In this document: positions 46,331-57,808 of the stretch, one piece after another
Layout of the letters: the number at the start of each line of letters is the position of its first letter
Position numbering within the stretch: the stretch's first letter is position 1
NCBI RefSeq assembly: GCF_014489635.1
Contig: NZ_CP060828.1
Span: 5,133,501 to 5,197,500 of the forward strand
Length of the DNA: 64,000 bases
Source of the DNA: Streptomyces roseirectus
Lineage (GTDB): Bacteria > Actinomycetota > Actinomycetes > Streptomycetales > Streptomycetaceae
Direction: 5' to 3'
Program-made: the position numbers and the translations under genes
The notes under the pieces: generated by a model
What the model saw: only the letters and a program-made list of their open reading frames with translations
What the model was told of the DNA's origin: nothing
The model's database searches: none

Positions 46331-47084
46331 TGCGCCACCCCTCGACACAGACGGCTGCCGCGCTGGCATAACCACGCGGCATTCGTAAACCCAGCGTAGT
46401 TCGCCGCATCCCAAGCGTTAAGAGGCATTGTTCCGGTTGGCGGGATTGTTGCCCGTACGGAAGTGCGGGCTCCGTAGCGGTCCGTCGCGATGTGCTCCCG
46501 CTGTGTGGCCGTGCGCCTGCGTGTGCGCTCTTCTCCGGCCACCCCGGGAGCGCTTCGATGGATGGTGCGTGGGTCGGCCCGCTGTACTGGATCCAGTGGG
46601 CTGGGGGACACCGCCGCCTACATCCCCGCGGGCGGCGGAACGGTCCGGGGGGCGAACCCCGCCTCCCGGATCGCGCGCTCGCACAGGGTCGTGCGGGCTG
46701 TGTACGGAGCGTGTGCGCGGCTTTTCCAACAGCCGTGCGCACGCTGCGAGTTCGGCTGCGTATTTGGCCGAAAAACGCCCCTAGGAACGCCGGGTGATCA
46801 AGCCCCCGACCATGGGAATCGAGGGCGCACAGGGCGTTCGGGGGGAGCGTATCGGGGGCGCATTCACGTCGCGGGCGCGGGGGCGCACGCGGGAGCGCGT
46901 ACCGGGTGTGTGCCCTGGTGCGTGCGAGGTGCCCGCGGGTACCCACCTCGGCAACGGCACGCGCGCACAGGCGCGTTGCCCGGCCTCTCAGGCGATCTGC
47001 CTTCCCTCATGGGCGCGTTCTTCGTGGCAGCATGGTGACCGGTTCGTGCGGTGCACCGGTTGTCCACAGCCTGTGGAGGCGTCG
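46331..47084. other. 754-bp divergent non-coding region
   Basis: No open frame here has a ribosome site and family likeness; the long frames are GC shadows. It holds the divergent promoters. Two palindromic ACCGGT boxes (47038-47043 and 47055-47060) sit 17 bases apart just before the asparagine-synthase-like gene, followed by TCCACA-GCC-TGTGGA (47063-47077). Confidence 0.6.
47063..47079 (+). promoter_or_regulatory. Inverted repeat overlapping the ribosome site
   Basis: TCCACA-GCC-TGTGGA forms a perfect 6-bp stem whose right arm covers the first bases of the GGAGG ribosome site (47075-47079) of the asparagine-synthase-like gene. Folding of the mRNA would hide the site. Confidence 0.5.
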
Positions 47085-49190
47085 ATGCGGTGGTTGGTGG
47101 GTTGGAGCATGACCGCCGCGGGGTCCGCCCCGGGCTTCGGCGACCCCTACGGCGGTTACGACGGCGGCGGCGCCGTCGGCCTGGACGGCGAGGTCGTCCA
47201 GCCGGTCGGCTCGCAGCTCCTGTGGGGCGACCCCGACCCCCTGTGGGCCGTCGGCGACTGGCGCCCCGACGAGATCCGCGTCGTCCGCGTCGACGCGCGC
47301 ACCAGGATCGCCGTCCTGGGCCTGTGCGGGGCCAGCGACGAGCAGTTGCGCATCGGGCTGCTGACGGCGCGCGGGGGCGCCCTGCGCCACCTCACCACCT
47401 GGCCCGGCAGCTACACGGCCGTCGTCCAGGTCGACCGCCGCGTCACCGTCTGCGGCGACCTCGCGGGCGCGCGCCCGGTGTTCCACACGCCCTGGGCGGG
47501 CGGGACGGCGTACGCGACGGCCGCGCTGCCGCTCGCCGACCTCGTCGAGGCCAACCTCGACTTCGGGCACCTCGCCGCGCTGCTCGCCGCCCCCGACGTA
47601 CCGGCCGCCCTCCTCGATTCGACGCCCTACGACGGTGTCCGCCGGGTGCCCCCGGGGCACGCGCTGGTGCTGCGCGCGGGCGCGCGTGAGGTCGTCGGGT
47701 ACGAGCCGGTCGCCTCCCTCGCCGTCGCCGCCGCCCCCATGGATTCGGACAGCGCCGTCGAGGGCGTGCGGGACGCGCTCGTCGAGGCCGTCCGGACGCG
47801 GCTGTCGGCACCCCGGCACGTGCCCGACATGGACCCCGGTCCCGTCCCCGGCATGGGGCCCGCCGAGCGGCGTGCCGCGCGCGGGATGCCCGTCCCCGGC
47901 ATCGGCGCGGACCTCACGGGCGGGCCCGCGTCCGGCACGCTCGCCCTCCTCGCCGCCGGCCTGCCCGGCATGCCGGGGACGCTGCTCGGTCACGGCACCG
48001 GCGCGGGCGAGCGCCTGCTCGCGGTCACCTTCAACGACCTCACGTCCCGGCGTCAGCAGGAGGAGCTGGAGCGCGCCGGCGAACTCGCCGCGAACCCCCG
48101 CCTCCACCACGTCGTCGTCACCGGCGACGCCGACATGCTCCCCTACGCGGCCCTGGACGGCCCTCTGACGGACGAACCCGGCCCCTCCCTCGTCCTGGCC
48201 GCCCGGCACCGCGCCCGCCTCGCAGCGGGCAGCGCCGACCACTTCACGGGGCACGGGGCCCGGCAGGCGCTCGACGCGAACCCCGCCCGCCTCGCGGACC
48301 TCCTCATGGACCGCAAACGCCGTCACCTCGTCCGGCCCGTCGCCGCGCTGACCAAGGCGGACGGCTCCGTCCTCGTGCCCGCGCGCGTGTACGGCGCCGC
48401 CCGCCGCCTCGCGCGCACGCCCTACGCCGCCGGTCTCGAATCCCTGGCCGACCGTCTCCTGTCCCGCCGCTTCGAGGACGTCCCCGGAGCCGTCGGGGCA
48501 TCCCTGGCCGCGCTGACCTGGGCCCCCGCCGGGCCCGCCGCCCGCTGGCTCACCGGCGAGGCCCTTGCTGAAGTATCGGTTCGCCTCCAGTCCGCCACGT
48601 CCCGTTCCGGCGCGGGCGGGCCCGGACAGAGACCCGGCGACCACCGTGCCCGCGCCGCCCTCGCCCGCCACGCCTCCGACCTCCGCGTCCTGGAACAGGC
48701 CACCGAGATCCGCTCCCAGCGGCTCCACGCGCCCTTCCTCGACAACCAGGTCGTACGCGCCTGCCAGGCGCTACCGGAAACGTTGCGCGTACAGCCGGGC
48801 GCACGCGCCTCGATCCTGCGCCGGGTCCTCAAAGCCTCCGGCGTGGGCGAGCTGCCCCCCGGCTGGGGCACCCCCACACCGGGCTCCGCCACCGCGACGG
48901 CCCGCGCGGGCCTGAGATCCGCCACGGGAAGCGTCCTCTCCCTCTTCGAGACACCCCTGCTCGCCGAGGCCGGACTGGTCGAGGCACGAGTCGTCCGCAA
49001 GGCGGTCCGCGACGCCGCCGCAGGCGAGCCGCTGCCCCTGGCCGGACTCGCCGACCTCGTCTCCCTGGAACTGTGGCTGCGGCGGCTGCTGGCGCGACGG
49101 GGGACGTGTTGGACGGGGACACCCGCGCGTGCGCGCGCGGTGCCTGCGGGGATCGCGCCGAGGCGGGGGGCGTTGTCGTCCGGGGGGTGA
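47085..49190 (+). CDS. Asparagine-synthase-like protein
   Basis: A 701-aa protein with asparagine synthetase-type layout: an N-terminal Ntn-like domain (residues about 1-210; ARTRIAVLGLCGAS, GDLAGARPVFHTPW) and a C-terminal ATP-pyrophosphatase-like domain. The start is MRWLVGW, so the catalytic Cys2 of glutamine-dependent enzymes is missing. The PP-loop, normally SGGxDS, reads TGGPASGT, so normal ATP use is doubtful. Long Pro/Met/Gly inserts interrupt the middle. Similar non-canonical proteins are conserved in Streptomyces at this locus by recall. A regulatory or amide-forming role is possible, but no substrate can be named. Confidence 0.78.
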   Translation: MRWLVGWSMTAAGSAPGFGDPYGGYDGGGAVGLDGEVVQPVGSQLLWGDPDPLWAVGDWRPDEIRVVRVDARTRIAVLGLCGASDEQLRIGLLTARGGALRHLTTWPGSYTAVVQVDRRVTVCGDLAGARPVFHTPWAGGTAYATAALPLADLVEANLDFGHLAALLAAPDVPAALLDSTPYDGVRRVPPGHALVLRAGAREVVGYEPVASLAVAAAPMDSDSAVEGVRDALVEAVRTRLSAPRHVPDMDPGPVPGMGPAERRAARGMPVPGIGADLTGGPASGTLALLAAGLPGMPGTLLGHGTGAGERLLAVTFNDLTSRRQQEELERAGELAANPRLHHVVVTGDADMLPYAALDGPLTDEPGPSLVLAARHRARLAAGSADHFTGHGARQALDANPARLADLLMDRKRRHLVRPVAALTKADGSVLVPARVYGAARRLARTPYAAGLESLADRLLSRRFEDVPGAVGASLAALTWAPAGPAARWLTGEALAEVSVRLQSATSRSGAGGPGQRPGDHRARAALARHASDLRVLEQATEIRSQRLHAPFLDNQVVRACQALPETLRVQPGARASILRRVLKASGVGELPPGWGTPTPGSATATARAGLRSATGSVLSLFETPLLAEAGLVEARVVRKAVRDAAAGEPLPLAGLADLVSLELWLRRLLARRGTCWTGTPARARAVPAGIAPRRGALSSGG

Positions 49191-49207: not shown

Positions 49208-49414
49208 TCAGGCGCTGAACTCTCCCGTCTTCACGCCCGTGAGGAAGGTTGCGAAGGCGGTGGCGTGGACGCTCAGGGCCGGGCCCGCCGGGTTCTTCGA
49301 GTCGCGGAGCGGGACCGTGCCGTGGATGGCGGCGAGGTTCGTGGCGACCTCGACGCACTGGCCGCCGTTCTCGCTGTACGAGGAGGTGATCCAGTGAGGC
49401 TGTTCGGTGTTCAC
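49208..49414 (-). CDS. DUF397 family small acidic protein
   Basis: A 68-aa protein matching the DUF397 pattern WITSSYSENGGQCVEVA and VPLRDSKNPAGPALSV. These proteins almost always follow an XRE regulator gene in Streptomyces and act together with it; BldB is a distant relative. A similar XRE-DUF397 pair in S. coelicolor has been described as toxin-antitoxin-like. The GTG start overlaps the stop of the XRE gene by four bases. Confidence 0.93.
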   Translation of the reverse strand: MNTEQPHWITSSYSENGGQCVEVATNLAAIHGTVPLRDSKNPAGPALSVHATAFATFLTGVKTGEFSA

Positions 49415-50298
49415 GGGGTGCCCTTTCGCAACTCTCTGATCATGGCCACGGAATCCGTTTGGGAAAGCGCTTCGGCCTGTAGCTGATAGTAGGCCGTCAA
49501 CAGGGGGACGACGTAGGTGTTGTCCCGCTCAAGATGGCCTCGCAGGGCGGACTCGGCGTACGCCACGAGTGTCCGGTCCGGCATGGTCAGCAGAGTGATC
49601 GGCAGGCTGACCGGCCGGTGCTCGCCCATGTCGAAGAGGGCGATCTGGAGATGGGTGTTCTTCAGCTCCGCGAACTCCAGCAGCCGATCCAACTGGGCCT
49701 TCATGACCCTGGGGTCACCCATGGGCCGACGGAGGCAACTCTCGTCCAGCACCGCGAAGATCTGCGGCGCGGGAAGCCGGAGCAGCGACGCCTGCCGTTG
49801 CGCGATGAGCGCGATCCGCTCCTCTGCCTGCGCACTTGTGATCACTCCCCGCTTCACGGCACTCCACGCGGAGACCTCCGCGTACTCAGGTGCCTGGAGC
49901 AGGCCGGGGATGACCCCTACCTCGTACAGCCGGATCTCGGCGGCCTTCGCCTCATGCGAGACCATCTGCGGGAACCCCTCCAGCAGCCCCCCGTTGTTCA
50001 TCTGCCGCCACCGACGTTCGAACATGTCCCCGGTCCCCAGGGCCCTGTCCATCAGTCGGGCCACTTGAAGAGTCGGCTTCTTGCGGGCGGTCTCCACGGC
50101 GGACATGTGCGAGCTGGAGAACCCCGCGCGGTCCGCCACCTCCTCCTGCGTGAGCCCCTGTTCCTCACGCACCTTGCGGAGTTGCGCCCCGAACTCGGCG
50201 TGCGGGGAACTGTCGGGGTCCAGTTTCTTGCGGTTCAACGGCGGAGTACCAACCTTCCGATCCGGTGGGCCAGTTGAAGGCTCCGGTGGCTCGACCAC
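49411..50298 (-). CDS. XRE-family regulator with DUF5753 domain (WhiJ-like)
   Basis: A 295-aa regulator. The helix-turn-helix (about 35-90) includes LRKVREEQGLTQEEVADRAGFSSSHMSAVE. The C-terminal DUF5753 region contains EIRLYEVGVIPGLLQAPEYAEV and DESCLRRPMGDPRVMKAQLDRLLEFAELKNTHLQI. Such proteins work with DUF397 partners, sometimes with an AbaA-type ATPase, in developmental switches. The exact 18-bp palindrome at 50353-50370, about 55 bases upstream, is a likely autoregulatory operator. The gene pair marks the start of an accessory block. Confidence 0.92.
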   Translation of the reverse strand: MVEPPEPSTGPPDRKVGTPPLNRKKLDPDSSPHAEFGAQLRKVREEQGLTQEEVADRAGFSSSHMSAVETARKKPTLQVARLMDRALGTGDMFERRWRQMNNGGLLEGFPQMVSHEAKAAEIRLYEVGVIPGLLQAPEYAEVSAWSAVKRGVITSAQAEERIALIAQRQASLLRLPAPQIFAVLDESCLRRPMGDPRVMKAQLDRLLEFAELKNTHLQIALFDMGEHRPVSLPITLLTMPDRTLVAYAESALRGHLERDNTYVVPLLTAYYQLQAEALSQTDSVAMIRELRKGTP

Positions 50299-51444: not shown

Positions 51445-52380
51445 TCAACCCACATCCCGCCGAACAAACCGCCACACGGCAACCGCCACCACCGGCACGA
51501 CATAACAAGCCAGCCCCAGGAACGCCACCCCCGCAGGCGTCCCCTCCCGCATCGCGAGGCACGCGAGGTCGCCGGTGCAGTCCGTCTTCTCCGTGGCCAT
51601 CAACAGTCGTTCGTCGAGGACGGCGAAGGCGATCCCGGAGAGGTGGAACTCGGCGAGGGACGGCAGGTAGTCCTGGAGGAGGGCCCCGGCGGCGACGAGG
51701 TACGCGAGGGCGAGCCCGAGGGCCTGGCCGGGGTGGCGCAGCAGCATGCCGAGCCCGTACCCGAGGAGCCCGGTGAGCCCGACGAAGGCTGCGCCCCGCA
51801 GGACGATGACGGCCAGCACACCCCAGAAGTGGACGTCCGTCCCCTCCAGACTCCCCCGGAACCGGGCCACGACCAGCAGCAACGGCACGAGCAGCACCGC
51901 CGACAGTACGGTCACCCCCGCCGAGACCGCCGCCACCAGCCCACCCCGGACCACGAAGAACCGCACCCGACGCGGCTCGGCCGCCGTCAACGTCAGCATC
52001 ACTCGCGTCGCCCAGTCCCGGCTCCCGCTGAACACCCCGAGGACGAGCGCGGCGACCGCGAGCGCGGTGCACACCGAACGCAGGTCCACGAAAGACGCCT
52101 TGGCCATCTGATACCGGGGATCGTCGTAGAAGAAGCCCGGCGAGAGGGGTTCCGCGTTGGCCAACCCCGCCATCTGCGCGGTGTACCGGCGATGTGCTTC
52201 GGCGGCGTCCCGCCAAGCCCCGGCGATATCGGTGTCGTTGGAGAAGAACGCCAGCACGGCGAACCCCACCAGCAGCAACGGCAATGCGTACAAGGTGAGT
52301 CGGACAGCCCGTGGGCTCAACAACCGCCGCAGCTCAGCCCGCAGGAGCCGAGGAAGAGGCACAGAAGCGTACGAGTTCAT
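51445..52380 (-). CDS. ABC-2 type permease, second copy
   Basis: A 311-aa membrane protein with six predicted segments. The large outside loop after TM1 holds FFYDDPRYQMAK; DWATRVMLTLTAAEPRR follows TM2. Before the last segment is DCTGDLAC, a Cys-x5-Cys loop. The neighbouring permease has the same blocks (FFYDDPRY, DWASRIMLTLAAAEPRR, ECFAGPGC), so the two are diverged tandem duplicates that probably form a heterodimer. The ATG overlaps the upstream stop by one base (TGATG). It is last in the operon. Confidence 0.88.
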   Translation of the reverse strand: MNSYASVPLPRLLRAELRRLLSPRAVRLTLYALPLLLVGFAVLAFFSNDTDIAGAWRDAAEAHRRYTAQMAGLANAEPLSPGFFYDDPRYQMAKASFVDLRSVCTALAVAALVLGVFSGSRDWATRVMLTLTAAEPRRVRFFVVRGGLVAAVSAGVTVLSAVLLVPLLLVVARFRGSLEGTDVHFWGVLAVIVLRGAAFVGLTGLLGYGLGMLLRHPGQALGLALAYLVAAGALLQDYLPSLAEFHLSGIAFAVLDERLLMATEKTDCTGDLACLAMREGTPAGVAFLGLACYVVPVVAVAVWRFVRRDVG

Positions 52381-53348
52381 CAGCCGATGTCCGTCCGTGT
52401 GGACCGCCACAGCGCGAGCGCGAGGATCGGTACGAGATAGATCAGCACCCCCAACAGCCCATCCACGATGGTCAGATCGACATGGACGGCCTCACACCCC
52501 GGCCCCGCGAAACACTCCGACCGCGCCAGCGGGATCACCGGCCTCTCGTTGAGCACCGCGTGCACCAGACCCCCCATGTCGTACTCGGCCAACCGCGGAC
52601 CCCGCCCCGCGAAGAGCCGGTCCGCGCTCGCGAGGTACAGGAACGCGACGGCGAGCGCGGTCGAGGTGCGGCGCGTGAGCATCGCGAGGGAGTACCCCAG
52701 CAGCGCGAGGACGCCGACGAGGAGGACACCGCGCACGTAGATGCCGGCGAGGACGTTCCAGAACGTGCCGTCGAGCCCGGACAGCCCGTTCGTCGTCCAC
52801 GCGGCCAGCAGCAACAAGGGCACAACCAATGCCCCCGCGACGGCAGTTGCCGCCATCGACAACCCCGTCACGAGCAGCGCCCGCGTCCCGAACAACCGCC
52901 CCCTGCGCGGCTCCGCCGCCGCCAGCGTCAGCATGATCCGCGACGCCCAGTCCGAGCCGCCCGCGAAGATCCCGAACAGCACGGCCGCCGCCGCGAGCGC
53001 GGTGACGAGGGTACGGAGATCGCCGTACGCCAGCGGCTCCATGAGGTAGCGGGGGTCGTCGTAGAAAAAGCGGGGCGTGATGGCGGCGTTGGTGGGCAGG
53101 TCGTAGCGTGCCGCGTCCTCCTGGAACCGCGTGAACCTCTCATCCGCCGTACGCCACGCGGCACTTGTGTCGCCGTCGTGCAGGAGGAGCTTGGAGAGGC
53201 CGAAGAGGAGAACGGCGACGGGGAGAAGGGCCGCGGTCAGGCGTGCGGCTCGGGGCGCGGCGAGTCGGTGGAACTCGGAGGAAAGGAGATAAAGCCAGGG
53301 AAGGGGACGGGTACGGGAAATTGGAAGTTCCTCTGCTTTAACTCGCAT
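52380..53348 (-). CDS. ABC-2 type permease, first copy
   Basis: A 322-aa membrane protein starting MRVKAEELPISRTRP at 53348, overlapping the ATPase gene by 11 bases. It has about six membrane segments, the shared FFYDDPRY loop and the Cys-x5-Cys motif ECFAGPGC before the last segment. Codon use and GC content are close to the host. It pairs with the following permease and the upstream ATPase as one exporter or immunity pump. Confidence 0.88.
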   Translation of the reverse strand: MRVKAEELPISRTRPLPWLYLLSSEFHRLAAPRAARLTAALLPVAVLLFGLSKLLLHDGDTSAAWRTADERFTRFQEDAARYDLPTNAAITPRFFYDDPRYLMEPLAYGDLRTLVTALAAAAVLFGIFAGGSDWASRIMLTLAAAEPRRGRLFGTRALLVTGLSMAATAVAGALVVPLLLLAAWTTNGLSGLDGTFWNVLAGIYVRGVLLVGVLALLGYSLAMLTRRTSTALAVAFLYLASADRLFAGRGPRLAEYDMGGLVHAVLNERPVIPLARSECFAGPGCEAVHVDLTIVDGLLGVLIYLVPILALALWRSTRTDIG

Positions 53349-54318
53349 GAGGGCGCCCCCTAGTCGACAGTTTATTCGTGTCAACTATCTGTGCTCGCTC
53401 TTCGTCCGCCTTCCGTACTGCCTCGATGTAAGCGTCCTCCAGTGAAGCTTTCTCTCGGCGAATTTCATCCGGAAAGACTCCGTGCTCGGCAAGTACCCGA
53501 AGCACCTCAGAGCTAGGACCAGAAGTGCTGACATGCAGTTCTGAACCTGCTGCCGGAATTACCGAGTAGCCGTGTGCATCAAGGAGTTCTCGCGCAGATG
53601 AAACTTCCGGACCTCGCAGCACCGTCCGCGCCGGCCCTCGCGCGAGCAGCGTCTCGACACTGTCATCACAGATCACCCGGCCGTGTCTGACGATCGTCAC
53701 TCTGTCGCAGACCAGTTCAACCTCGGCGAGGATGTGTGACGACACCACGACCGTCATCTCTCGCTCTCTCTGTAACCGCACCAGCAACTCTCGCATGTCC
53801 CGGACTGCTTCGGGATCGAGCCCGTTCATAGGCTCGTCGAGAACGAGAAGTTCGGGTGAGGGCAGCAACGCGGCAGCGACCCCCAGACGCTGCTTCATGC
53901 CGAGCGAGTAGCCGGAGTATGACCGATGCGCGGCCTCCGCGAGCCCGACCAGGTCAAGGACTTCGTCCACCAACCTCTTTTTCACGCCGTGTAGTTCACC
54001 GAGCAGCCGAAGATTGTGGTGCCCGGTGAGTGACGGAGTGAACGCCGGCCCTTCGATGATCGCTCCCATCTTCCGCGCCACGAACCGCTGGTCACGCGGA
54101 AGGTCATGCCCGAAGGCGCGCAACGTGCCTTGATCGGCCCGCACTAACCCCAGCAGGACCTTCAACGCAGTCGTCTTACCAGATCCGTTGGGCCCTAGCA
54201 GCCCGACCAGCGATCCGCGAGGGATGGTCATGGAGAATCCATCCAACGCTGTCTGGCGGCCCCCGCGAGGCGTCCGGAACTTTTTGACGACTCCGTCGAA
54301 CCGAACCAACTCACTCAC
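53338..54318 (-). CDS. ABC transporter ATP-binding protein (bacitracin/lantibiotic-immunity type)
   Basis: A 326-aa ATPase. Walker A GPNGSGKT is at about 42-49, the signature reads YSLGMKQRLG (about 137-146) and Walker B LLVLDEPMNGLDP. The LGMKQRL signature is typical of BcrA/LanF-type ATPases that protect against or export peptides. The GTG start overlaps the lipoprotein stop by four bases. DNA from about 53350 onward is noticeably less GC-rich than its surroundings, suggesting transfer. Confidence 0.92.
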   Translation of the reverse strand: MSELVRFDGVVKKFRTPRGGRQTALDGFSMTIPRGSLVGLLGPNGSGKTTALKVLLGLVRADQGTLRAFGHDLPRDQRFVARKMGAIIEGPAFTPSLTGHHNLRLLGELHGVKKRLVDEVLDLVGLAEAAHRSYSGYSLGMKQRLGVAAALLPSPELLVLDEPMNGLDPEAVRDMRELLVRLQREREMTVVVSSHILAEVELVCDRVTIVRHGRVICDDSVETLLARGPARTVLRGPEVSSARELLDAHGYSVIPAAGSELHVSTSGPSSEVLRVLAEHGVFPDEIRREKASLEDAYIEAVRKADEERAQIVDTNKLSTRGRPHAS

Positions 54319-54830
54319 TGCTGGACCTTCCCGGCTGTAGGCGAAGAATACGCGACTGCGCAGTAGCCTGTCCGGTTTCCCTCAGCCCATGACTGCTTGT
54401 CATACGCCATGAGATACAGAGCGATCCGTGTGCCTCGTGCCGCTGCTACGACCGGTTCAAGAGTGGGTTCACAGGCGGTTCGTGTCTGATTTACCAGCTC
54501 TTGTTGGCCTGGGTAAGGGGATTTCGCGTCACCTTTGAGGACTATTTTTGAAACGATTTCCAATAGGTGTGGGTCGGTGCAGTCGACGGTGCCGATCTGC
54601 TGACTTGCGGTCACTTCTCCCCAGTAGTTGGAACACGTGCCGACTGCGAGCTTGCTGTATGACACGGGCTTCCCCTGAGGCAAGTTCTTGCCCATTGCTT
54701 CGAAGGGGTTCTGCGTCTGCGTCCCGTGTTCTTCCTTCTCATCGTGCCCGGAGTCAGTTGTGGCGCACCCGGTGAGAAACACCGCAGTGATGAGGGCCGC
54801 GCCCAGGCGGACATGAAAATTGTGCGCCAT
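54315..54830 (-). CDS. Lipoprotein with septum-formation-like domain
   Basis: A 171-aa lipoprotein. The lipobox is FLTGC with Cys22 lipidated. The mature part carries the pattern VGTCSNYWGEVTASQQIGTVDCTDPHLLEIV and later CEPTLEPVV and GYCAVAYSS, resembling the actinobacterial septum-formation-type domain with conserved Cys pairs. It is the first gene of the ABC operon, translationally coupled to the ATPase. A substrate-capture or immunity lipoprotein is the likely role. Confidence 0.82.
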   Translation of the reverse strand: MAHNFHVRLGAALITAVFLTGCATTDSGHDEKEEHGTQTQNPFEAMGKNLPQGKPVSYSKLAVGTCSNYWGEVTASQQIGTVDCTDPHLLEIVSKIVLKGDAKSPYPGQQELVNQTRTACEPTLEPVVAAARGTRIALYLMAYDKQSWAEGNRTGYCAVAYSSPTAGKVQQ

Positions 54831-54858
54831 GTTGCTCGCCTTCGTTGGAGGAATGGAG

Positions 54859-54900
54859 CCGCCTGGGCGGGACCGGAACTCCGGTCCCGCCCAGGCGGCG
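54859..54900. terminator. Perfect 20-bp hairpin between the secreted protein and ABC operon
   Basis: The arms 54859-54878 and 54881-54900 are exact reverse complements with only AC between them. There is no U tract, so it fits an attenuator or an mRNA end stabiliser. It lies 19-60 bases after the secreted-protein stop and 29 bases before the lipoprotein start. Confidence 0.8.
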
Positions 54901-54918
54901 GACTGCCTTCGTAATGGG

Positions 54919-55233
54919 TCAGCAGATCCTTGTGCCGTAGTAAGTGTCCCTGGTGTCACCGTCGTCGCCACCGTTGTTGTCAGCCCACCAGTCGACGACC
55001 AGGTTGCCACCCGTGTTGGCTATGGCTCCCACGTAGTGGTTACCCGTGTCATGGCTGTGACCCGACGCTCTACTCGGAGCCTCAGCCCCAGGGTTGCCGT
55101 TGATGGTGATGGTGCCCCAGGTGCAGCGGGTGTCCGCGTGAGCGGTTGAGGCGGTCCCCCCCAGGACCAGGAGACCCGCGCATGCGGCAGTAGCGGTTCC
55201 CAGCGCGCTGAGGCGGCGAACGTTCTTCTTCAC
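54919..55233 (-). CDS. Small secreted protein with terminal cysteines
   Basis: A 104-aa precursor. The signal peptide covers residues 1-33 (cleavage after STAHA). The mature product is about 71 residues, starts DTRC and ends GTRIC, with only these two cysteines, so an end-to-end disulfide is possible. The middle is polar with GHSHDTGNHYVGAIANTGGNLVVDWW. I recognise no family; lactococcin-972-like proteins are of similar size and gene context but lack this pattern. GTG start with GGGAGGGA upstream. It is first in the block before the hairpin and ABC genes. Confidence 0.78.
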   Translation of the reverse strand: MKKNVRRLSALGTATAACAGLLVLGGTASTAHADTRCTWGTITINGNPGAEAPSRASGHSHDTGNHYVGAIANTGGNLVVDWWADNNGGDDGDTRDTYYGTRIC

Positions 55234-55981: not shown

Positions 55982-57808
55982 TCACGAACACCGGAACCGC
56001 GACTCCGCCCAGTCCACCAACGCCAGTTCGTCGAACGGCGTGTGCGGCTCCACCACGAGCCGGACGGTCTTGCGCCCCCGCAGATCGACATGCACAGGCA
56101 CCGCCGCGTCGCCGTTCTTCACGAGCCCGGAGCGCCACAGGCGGACCCCGTCGGCGTAGACGGCGAAGTGGGCCTGGCCGAGGCGGAGGGTGGAGTCGTC
56201 GATGCCGACGAGGGCGTCGTAGGAGGTGCACGTGCGGTTGAGGTCGACGGTGACGGAGGACCCCGCGCGCACGGTCACCCCGCTGTAGGGCTGCCCGGCG
56301 ATGGAGAGGTTGTCCCGCTGCCAGACCCAACTGCTCTCGAAGAGCCGGATCTCGGGCCCGGTTCCGTCGCCGTTGGTGTCGTACGTCAGCTCGTTGAGCG
56401 GATAGACGGCGGGGGCGGGCGGCGGCGGAGTGGGTGAAGGCGTGGGGGTGGGGGTGGGCGTAGGTGCAGGGGTGGGAGTCGGCGTCGGCTTGGGACTCGG
56501 CCGCACCGGAACCGGCTTCACCGGCACGGGAGTTGGCGTCGGCGTAGGCGTCGGAGTCGGCTCCACGACCGGCACCACCACCTCCGGCTCCTCCGAAGGA
56601 GACGGCGAAGGCGACGGCGTCGGCGTGACCTCCTCCCGCACCACCGGCGCCGAAGAGGGCGCCGGCGCCGCGGGCGTCTTCTCCGCGCTGTCGTTGCCCA
56701 CCAGCGCCAAGGCCACCGCCGCGGCGGCCACCGCCACCACCCCCGCCGCGATCCCCGCCTTCACCGGCGCCCCCAGCCCCTCGGAAGCCGCGGCCCCACC
56801 GGAGGACGCCCCACCGTTCGCGGCGGCAGCCGCACCACCCACACCAGCGGCCCCCGCTCCCACGCCACCCGCGATGAGCGCGGCGGCCTTCGCGTACCCG
56901 GCCGCCCCGAACCACCCGATGACCGCGACCGGCACGACCGCCGGGATCCCGCTGGCCACTTCCTCGATCTGGAGCGCCGCCAGCCGGCACTTCGCGCACT
57001 CCTCCAGATGCTTGCGCAGCCCCCGCTCGGCCCGCGTCCGCAACCGTTTGCGCGCGTACGTCCCGAGCTGGTCGGCGTACTGGCTGCACTCCTCGTCGGA
57101 GGTCAGCGTCGCCGACACGTGCGCCTGGAGATACGCCTGCTTCAGCCCCTCCCGGGCCCGCGACGCCAGCACCCGCGTCCCGTTGGCGTCCAGCCCGAAC
57201 AGCGTCGCGACCTCGCTCGGCGACTCGTCCTCGACCTCGGTGTGCCACAGCACCGCCTGCCACCGCTCGGGCAGCGACCGGAACGCCTGCATCGCCATCG
57301 ACTGCTCGGCCTCGTGCATGGCCCGCACGTCCGCGCCGAGTTCCAGCGTGTCGTCGTCCCCGCCCTCGGAACGCCCCGCCGCCTGCGCCGCGAACACCGC
57401 GAAGTCGTCGACCAGTTGCTCACGCTTCGCCGACTGGATCCACTGCGCGGCGACCCGCCGCACGGACGTCAGCAGATAGGCGCGGACGGCGTGCTCGGGC
57501 CCGGAACCGCCCCGCACGGCCTGGAGCATCCGCGCGAACACCTCGGCCGTGAGGTCGTCGGCGGTGTGCCCGTCGCGGCAGCAGGTGCGCGCGTACCGGC
57601 GCACGGCGTCGGCGTGCCGGCGGTACAGCTCCTCGTACGCGGAGTCGTCCCCGGCGCGCATCGAGCCGATCAGCTCGGCGTCGGCCGGCGGCAGCTCCCT
57701 GAGCGGCGGCAGGACGCCCTCGTCCCGCCGGTCCCGCTGACTGGGCACCTGCGGCGAGGCCAGCGCCTCACCGTCGTCCAGTGACTCGTCCCGCCCGTCA
57801 ACACTCAT
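55982..57808 (-). CDS. ECF sigma factor fused to zinc-finger, membrane anchor and NPCBM domain
   Basis: A 608-aa protein. Sigma region 2 is at about 45-110 (YEELYRRHADAVRRYARTCC, DDLTAEVFARMLQA) and region 4 at about 180-235 (FRSLPERWQAVLWHTEVE, EVATLFGLDANGTRVL). A zinc-binding anti-sigma-like motif HLEECAKC follows near 270, then two hydrophobic stretches with a membrane segment (VKAGIAAGVVAVAAAAVALAL, about 350-370). A Thr/Pro-repeat stalk runs from about 400 to 480 and an extracellular NPCBM-like carbohydrate-binding domain ends the protein (FAVYADGVRLWRSGLV, VDLRGRKTVRLVVE). The layout fits the ECF52-type group, a membrane-tethered sigma factor sensing a surface sugar. Confidence 0.9.
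   Translation of the reverse strand: MSVDGRDESLDDGEALASPQVPSQRDRRDEGVLPPLRELPPADAELIGSMRAGDDSAYEELYRRHADAVRRYARTCCRDGHTADDLTAEVFARMLQAVRGGSGPEHAVRAYLLTSVRRVAAQWIQSAKREQLVDDFAVFAAQAAGRSEGGDDDTLELGADVRAMHEAEQSMAMQAFRSLPERWQAVLWHTEVEDESPSEVATLFGLDANGTRVLASRAREGLKQAYLQAHVSATLTSDEECSQYADQLGTYARKRLRTRAERGLRKHLEECAKCRLAALQIEEVASGIPAVVPVAVIGWFGAAGYAKAAALIAGGVGAGAAGVGGAAAAANGGASSGGAAASEGLGAPVKAGIAAGVVAVAAAAVALALVGNDSAEKTPAAPAPSSAPVVREEVTPTPSPSPSPSEEPEVVVPVVEPTPTPTPTPTPVPVKPVPVRPSPKPTPTPTPAPTPTPTPTPSPTPPPPAPAVYPLNELTYDTNGDGTGPEIRLFESSWVWQRDNLSIAGQPYSGVTVRAGSSVTVDLNRTCTSYDALVGIDDSTLRLGQAHFAVYADGVRLWRSGLVKNGDAAVPVHVDLRGRKTVRLVVEPHTPFDELALVDWAESRFRCS

Follow-up and report, generated by a model that had tools for sequence, protein, structure and literature searches.

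A mobile five-gene block in Streptomyces

A five-gene block that encodes a small, predicted secreted protein (sec), a lipoprotein and an ABC transporter with two permeases is a real conserved unit in Streptomyces, beyond what chance would produce. By analogy with the self-protection of lantibiotic producers, it is quite possible that sec is an unmodified secreted bacteriocin-like protein accompanied by LanI/LanFEG-like immunity. The block lies within the window, that is, the whole 64,000-nucleotide stretch of the Streptomyces roseirectus chromosome (a single contig of 9.95 Mb) that was analysed here. It is encoded on the minus strand and runs from 55233 to 51445 in the order precursor, lipoprotein, ATPase, permease A and permease B:

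54919..55233, minus strand: secreted precursor (sec), 104 aa, GTG start
55135-55233, minus strand: predicted signal peptide of sec
54922-55134, minus strand: predicted mature sec protein, 71 aa, Cys 4 and 71
54858..54899, minus strand: 19-bp hairpin between the sec stop and the lipoprotein start (folding compared with shuffles)
54315..54830, minus strand: lipoprotein, 171 aa, lipobox Cys22, Septum_form domain
53338..54318, minus strand: ABC ATPase of the LanF/DrrA type, PF00005, nearest NCBIfam model TIGR03740
52380..53348, minus strand: permease A, FFYDDPRY motif, two invariant Cys
51445..52380, minus strand: permease B, paralogue of permease A

The last four genes are coupled by overlaps, just as an earlier reading of this DNA from the sequence alone (the sequence-only reading) had described: GTGA joins lipoprotein and ATPase, 11 bp (53338-53348) are shared by ATPase and permease A, and TGATG links the two permeases.

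Several other features lie close to the block. Just upstream of it, an ORF at 55982-57808 (minus strand) fuses an ECF-type sigma factor with a Pro/Thr-rich stretch and a C-terminal NPCBM domain. A regulator pair (HTH/DUF5753 and DUF397) is located at 49208-50298 (minus strand); such pairs also occur near the cassette in genomes G383 and G177, but the source genome has 62 DUF397 matches. The ORF at 46794-49190 (plus strand) carries an asparagine-synthase domain (PF00733, 3.7e-9) and gives the impression of a lasso-peptide cyclase; no lasso partner was found among the neighbouring ORFs scanned. At the locus of McG3 (L016), the start of a 1616-aa ORF lies upstream of the cassette at a distance of about 7.4 kb; its N-terminus gives the impression of a possible polymorphic toxin.

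The block recurs with unrelated flanks

Among 392 Streptomyces genomes, we detected the sec gene or a remnant of it in six, the pump (counted as permease B hits) in seven and both in six. The sec search itself gave seven hits, from which genome G137 was dropped as a signal-peptide match. With the source genome left out, sec and pump share five of 391 genomes (hypergeometric P = 8e-11). The permease pair was found in 7 of 394 genomes drawn from the family of the source; two of these seven were new, and both have a full sec gene.

We compared 11 distinct Streptomyces loci. The order sec-lipoprotein-ATPase-permease A-permease B is identical in ten of them (the source and nine others with some sec left), and G177 has the pump alone. 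This neighbourhood comparison supports the earlier proposal that sec, the lipoprotein and the heterodimeric ABC transporter form one cassette. In blastn comparisons of all locus pairs (pieces of at least 150 bases, E<=1e-10, 2.7-11 kb of flank per side), similarity was confined to the block; no listed piece extended more than about 0.35 kb beyond it, and the called flanking ORFs differ between loci. McG3 and S. microflavus have 4.1 kb in common at 95.7%, with no further listed flank piece. Since the block recurs with unrelated flanks across the 11 Streptomyces loci, we conclude that it moves as a unit. In nine of the 11 loci, sec distances could be shown to track those of the lipoprotein, the ATPase and the permeases, with Mantel r of 0.77, 0.63 and 0.75, values that were reached by 7, 12 and 11 of 5000 permutations, respectively.

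A hairpin separates sec from the pump genes

In the source, the stretch between sec and the lipoprotein gene folds at -52.7 kcal/mol (z -5.8). A long hairpin lies at the same site in nine other Streptomyces loci, and in G177 one precedes the lipoprotein gene; stem sequences are not the same from one lineage to another. In each of the 11 loci, the stretch is more stable than its shuffled versions are on average (z -1.75 to -7.5). G383 gives the weakest signal, with 9 of 200 shuffles reaching its value (8 for S. microflavus). The hairpin is likely a terminator/attenuator or an mRNA-stabilising element that protects the 3' end. As no T run lies downstream of it, its part in attenuation or 3'-end protection is one that we infer.

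Sec is damaged repeatedly and the pump mostly stays open

The sec ORF is whole and has a signal-peptide-like start in seven loci (the source, G210, G383, G331, L014, L016 and G1079). The S. zagrosensis (L017), S. avidinii (G039) and G340 copies are without the 5' end. G039 retains an in-frame start and might still make a sec product. Sec is gone in G177, where a hairpin and promoter-side sequence matching that of G331 persist (local score of 38 for the promoter side versus 28 for the best of 500 shuffles). The pump ORFs are open in ten of the 11 loci, the exception being G340 with a frameshifted permease B. That is, sec is gone or 5'-truncated in four of the 11 loci, and the pump is open in three of those four. 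Judged from these sequences, a damaged sec beside an open pump is the pattern that would be expected if a toxin were lost and its immunity kept. One report on E. coli bacteriocin plasmids describes immunity genes without a toxin gene or beside a degraded one (PMC12546727).

Sec accounts for 8.5% of the coding length but carries four of the five lesions (P 2.4e-4); the count in this test is small, sec sits at one edge of the unit, and assembly errors are possible. For the pump genes, the 16 dN/dS values between intact loci range over 0.14-0.42, and 26 of the 28 values from pairs that include a locus without intact sec lie at 0.16-0.37, which gives no date for the sec losses. The two outliers are 0.77 (lipoprotein of S. 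zagrosensis versus McG3, 20 changes) and 0.41 (the broken permease B of G340).

Sec and pump outside Streptomyces

A similar block exists in Ornithinimicrobium murale (L020), which belongs to the order Micrococcales (Streptomyces to Kitasatosporales). Here, genes for a lipoprotein, an ATPase and a single permease come after a frame-broken sec homologue, and behind them is an ORF that carries an integrase core domain. In a profile alignment the permease matched the Streptomyces pair (probability 97.4%, E 1.4e-11, 27% identity), with which it has the FF-DPRY (FFxDPRY) and GSDW motifs and the Cys pair in common. The lipoprotein gave a weak profile match to its Streptomyces counterpart (53%, E 1.3e-4) and no match in Pfam. 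The association is therefore either old or was transferred between orders.

Within the Streptosporangiaceae, the family of Nonomuraea spiralis, a search at E<=0.001 detected sec in 6 of 150 genomes, with two of the six matches weak, and sec occurs in 4 of the 16 genomes of one genus. None of eight loci from seven genomes has a lipoprotein or permease homologue near sec (about 5-10 kb per side, 0.9 kb downstream in L054), and in three of the eight, ABC ATPase-like matches lie kilobases away from it. In L021 and L057, the sec member seems to be broken or is without a clear start. The sequence-only reading had named, as evidence against its proposal, sec homologues that mostly occur without the ABC genes; outside Streptomyces this is what we found, in all eight Streptosporangiaceae loci examined. 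A producer of sec thus need not have such a pump. Either these species rely on other protection or are insensitive, or they use the protein differently.

It had also been suggested that the pump transports sec or serves to resist it. The latter fits better: sec comes with a predicted signal peptide of its own, and three of the four sec-damaged loci have open pump ORFs. Gene order and co-inheritance would suit an ABC transporter that exports or matures sec. Such a role is nevertheless highly improbable, given the signal peptide, the conservation of the pump in three loci without intact sec and the Streptosporangiaceae loci L019, L054, L055 and L056, where sec shows a signal-peptide-like start with no permease nearby.

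The predicted secreted protein has conserved cysteines and an Asp/Gly loop

Reading the A-x-A site places the predicted mature start of sec at D34. The resulting 71-aa protein has a predicted mass of 7.5 kDa (on average 7494.8 Da if one disulfide forms, 7496.8 Da when reduced), a pI of 4.6, a net charge of about -5 and no Cys besides 4 and 71, in agreement with the earlier description of a signal-peptide precursor with a mature form of about 71 residues and exactly two Cys, at position 4 and at the end. In HMM searches, the precursor reached the cut-off of no model in Pfam or NCBIfam, and the earlier statement that the protein fits no recognised family stands. One search returned ten relatives at E<=0.01, and with a profile of these ten, at least 50 proteins scored E<=0.1; the listed ones for which an organism is named come from Streptomyces, Streptosporangium, Nonomuraea, Micromonospora and Kitasatospora. 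We aligned 44 sequences, namely 43 of the 50 listed relatives and the window protein. Invariant in all 44 mature proteins are Cys 4, Cys 71, D52, N53, G55, G56, G59 and D63, and nearly invariant are H26, H28, H33, Y34, W49, D58 and D60. Several distinct members of the family occur per Streptosporangium species (L054, L055, L065; P0020, P0027, P0030, P0031), and four listed Streptosporangium proteins, on contigs of identical 10,339-base size and with adjacent locus tags, suggest a tandem array.

AlphaFold2 modelled sec as a five-strand beta protein (pLDDT 87, pTM 0.73). The fold has no convincing match in the PDB, and neither sequence nor fold convincingly matches a known bacteriocin. Among 45 mature proteins parsed from the 50 listed relatives, 44 are negatively charged (median -4; one parse is a fragment), unlike most membrane-active bacteriocins, which are not acidic. 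A Pfam search with 44 members listed 12 families at E<=1, among which PF09683 and any inhibitor family were absent.

The Asp/Gly loop suggests, at the level of sequence, that sec may bind calcium or another metal. Sec could accordingly be a non-toxic ligand, chelator or envelope factor, for example one that binds calcium or metal via its conserved His and Asp/Gly loops. In that case, the ABC transporter and the lipoprotein would sense it or manage the envelope component to which it binds. The (nearly) invariant GH-H-G-HY and ADN-GG-DGDT-D residues and the acidic charge are consistent with such a function, as are the several distinct members in single Streptosporangium species and the Streptosporangiaceae loci examined, which have no lipoprotein or permease homologue nearby. 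However, if the pump served sec, one would less expect sec to be lost repeatedly and the pump ORFs to remain, and the mobile, patchy distribution better suits conflict genes. We therefore consider a ligand or chelator unlikely.

Lipoprotein, ATPase and permeases

The sequence-only reading had recognised a lipoprotein, a BcrA/LanF-type ATPase and two paralogous permeases, and our searches agree through the lipobox, PF00005 and the cross-matches between the permeases. The lipobox of the lipoprotein (LTGCAT, with C22) contains the residues GCAT that are invariant in ten of ten aligned lipoproteins, and the protein matches Septum_form (PF13845) at 7.2e-11 and 42.5 bits against a cut-off of 25 (34.6 bits for the S. 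microflavus relative). The ATPase reaches 97.6 bits with PF00005 (gathering score 25). Its best NCBIfam hit is the lantibiotic protection ATPase TIGR03740, at 195.8 bits below the cut-off of 309.75, and the DrrA model scores 191.6 bits, likewise under its cut-off. Permease A carries FFYDDPRY in the predicted first extracellular loop and two invariant Cys ahead of the final hydrophobic segment. In tblastn, either permease finds the locus of the other at about 37-47% identity (42% in the source genome). Neither has an NCBIfam match at E<=1 or any match above the Pfam cut-off; permease A gives one TRP match of 12.3 bits, below cut-off.

The ATPase thus resembles drug exporters such as DrrA, as would be expected if lipoprotein and pump were a resistance or efflux unit for another compound, with sec, for example an enzyme or a protease inhibitor, as a loosely coupled passenger. 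The two halves do occur apart (the pump alone in G177, sec alone in the Streptosporangiaceae loci examined), and one listed sec relative has a source name beginning 'Peptidase inhibitor f'. Yet sec and pump are linked in ten of the 11 Streptomyces loci and in another order, their divergence is correlated, and no inhibitor family is among the 12 Pfam families listed for the 44 members. A passenger role of this kind is quite unlikely in our view.

Comparison with known systems

The closest known system is LanI with LanFEG (NisI/NisFEG; MlbQ is the LanI counterpart for NAI-107). Two reports describe a lipoprotein, one ATPase and two permeases that are encoded with a small secreted product, and lantibiotic producers in which LanI binds at the surface and LanFEG expels (PMC4828448, PMC5786555). 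The block likewise encodes a lipoprotein, an ATPase and two permeases together with a small secreted product, and the best NCBIfam hit of its ATPase is a lantibiotic-protection model. However, the ATPase stays below the cut-off of that model, the permeases match neither LanE/LanG nor any other NCBIfam or Pfam permease family, the lipoprotein belongs to the Septum_form family, unlike LanI, and the product is, unlike lantibiotics, a predicted unmodified, folded 71-aa protein that has two Cys and is made with a signal peptide. No lantibiotic family in Pfam or NCBIfam matched the precursor, and the conserved block of the 11 loci, which comprises five genes only, is devoid of modification or leader-processing genes.

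In the lactococcin 972 system (lcn972-orf2-orf3), a small unmodified bacteriocin is followed by putative ABC immunity genes, according to one report (PMC4055356). The block shares this arrangement, with a small, predicted unmodified product ahead of putative ABC immunity genes, but has a lipoprotein and two permeases where that system has two genes. Membership of sec in the lactococcin 972 family was rejected: PF09683 is absent from the 12 families that the 44 members gave at E<=1, and Lcn972 is described as having no Cys (PMC8538875), whereas Cys 4 and 71 are invariant in 44 sequences. Since the defining features of both systems were tested and not found in it, we did not file the block as LanFEG or lactococcin 972. 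The umbrella toxin particles of Streptomyces, like the predicted sec protein, are secreted Streptomyces products and are reported to be antibacterial, but they are protein complexes (PMC11062931), in contrast to one small secreted protein with a pump.

Discussion

The lipoprotein and ABC transporter are likely to confer immunity, and sec would consequently be an unmodified bacteriocin. Its precursor would leave the cell by its own signal peptide and not via the pump, fold into a small, acidic beta structure that a disulfide between Cys4 and Cys71 closes, and act on the envelope of sensitive relatives. In the producer, the lipoprotein would catch sec on the surface of the membrane, and the ATPase, together with permeases A and B, would expel it, as LanI/LanFEG do for lantibiotics. 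The hairpin may keep sec transcripts more abundant than pump transcripts. Several observations speak against a bacteriocin: the Streptosporangiaceae sec genes without a lipoprotein or permease homologue nearby, the acidic nature of the protein, its failure to match a known bacteriocin convincingly in sequence or fold, and the broken permease B of G340.

More tentatively, sec might represent a new class of bacteriocin: an acidic, disulfide-closed beta protein with a metal loop and its own signal peptide, encoded in a discrete cassette that moves between actinobacteria. The cassette would bring its own LanI/LanFEG-like immunity, which would use permeases of an undescribed family, and would have been disarmed repeatedly to leave immunity-only cheaters.

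The permease family found here is matched by no Pfam or NCBIfam model. The weapons of Streptomyces are known mostly as small molecules; if our interpretation is true, an unmodified secreted protein bacteriocin would be added to them. Strains with the whole unit, strains that lost sec and strains without the unit would then take the roles of producer, immune and sensitive.
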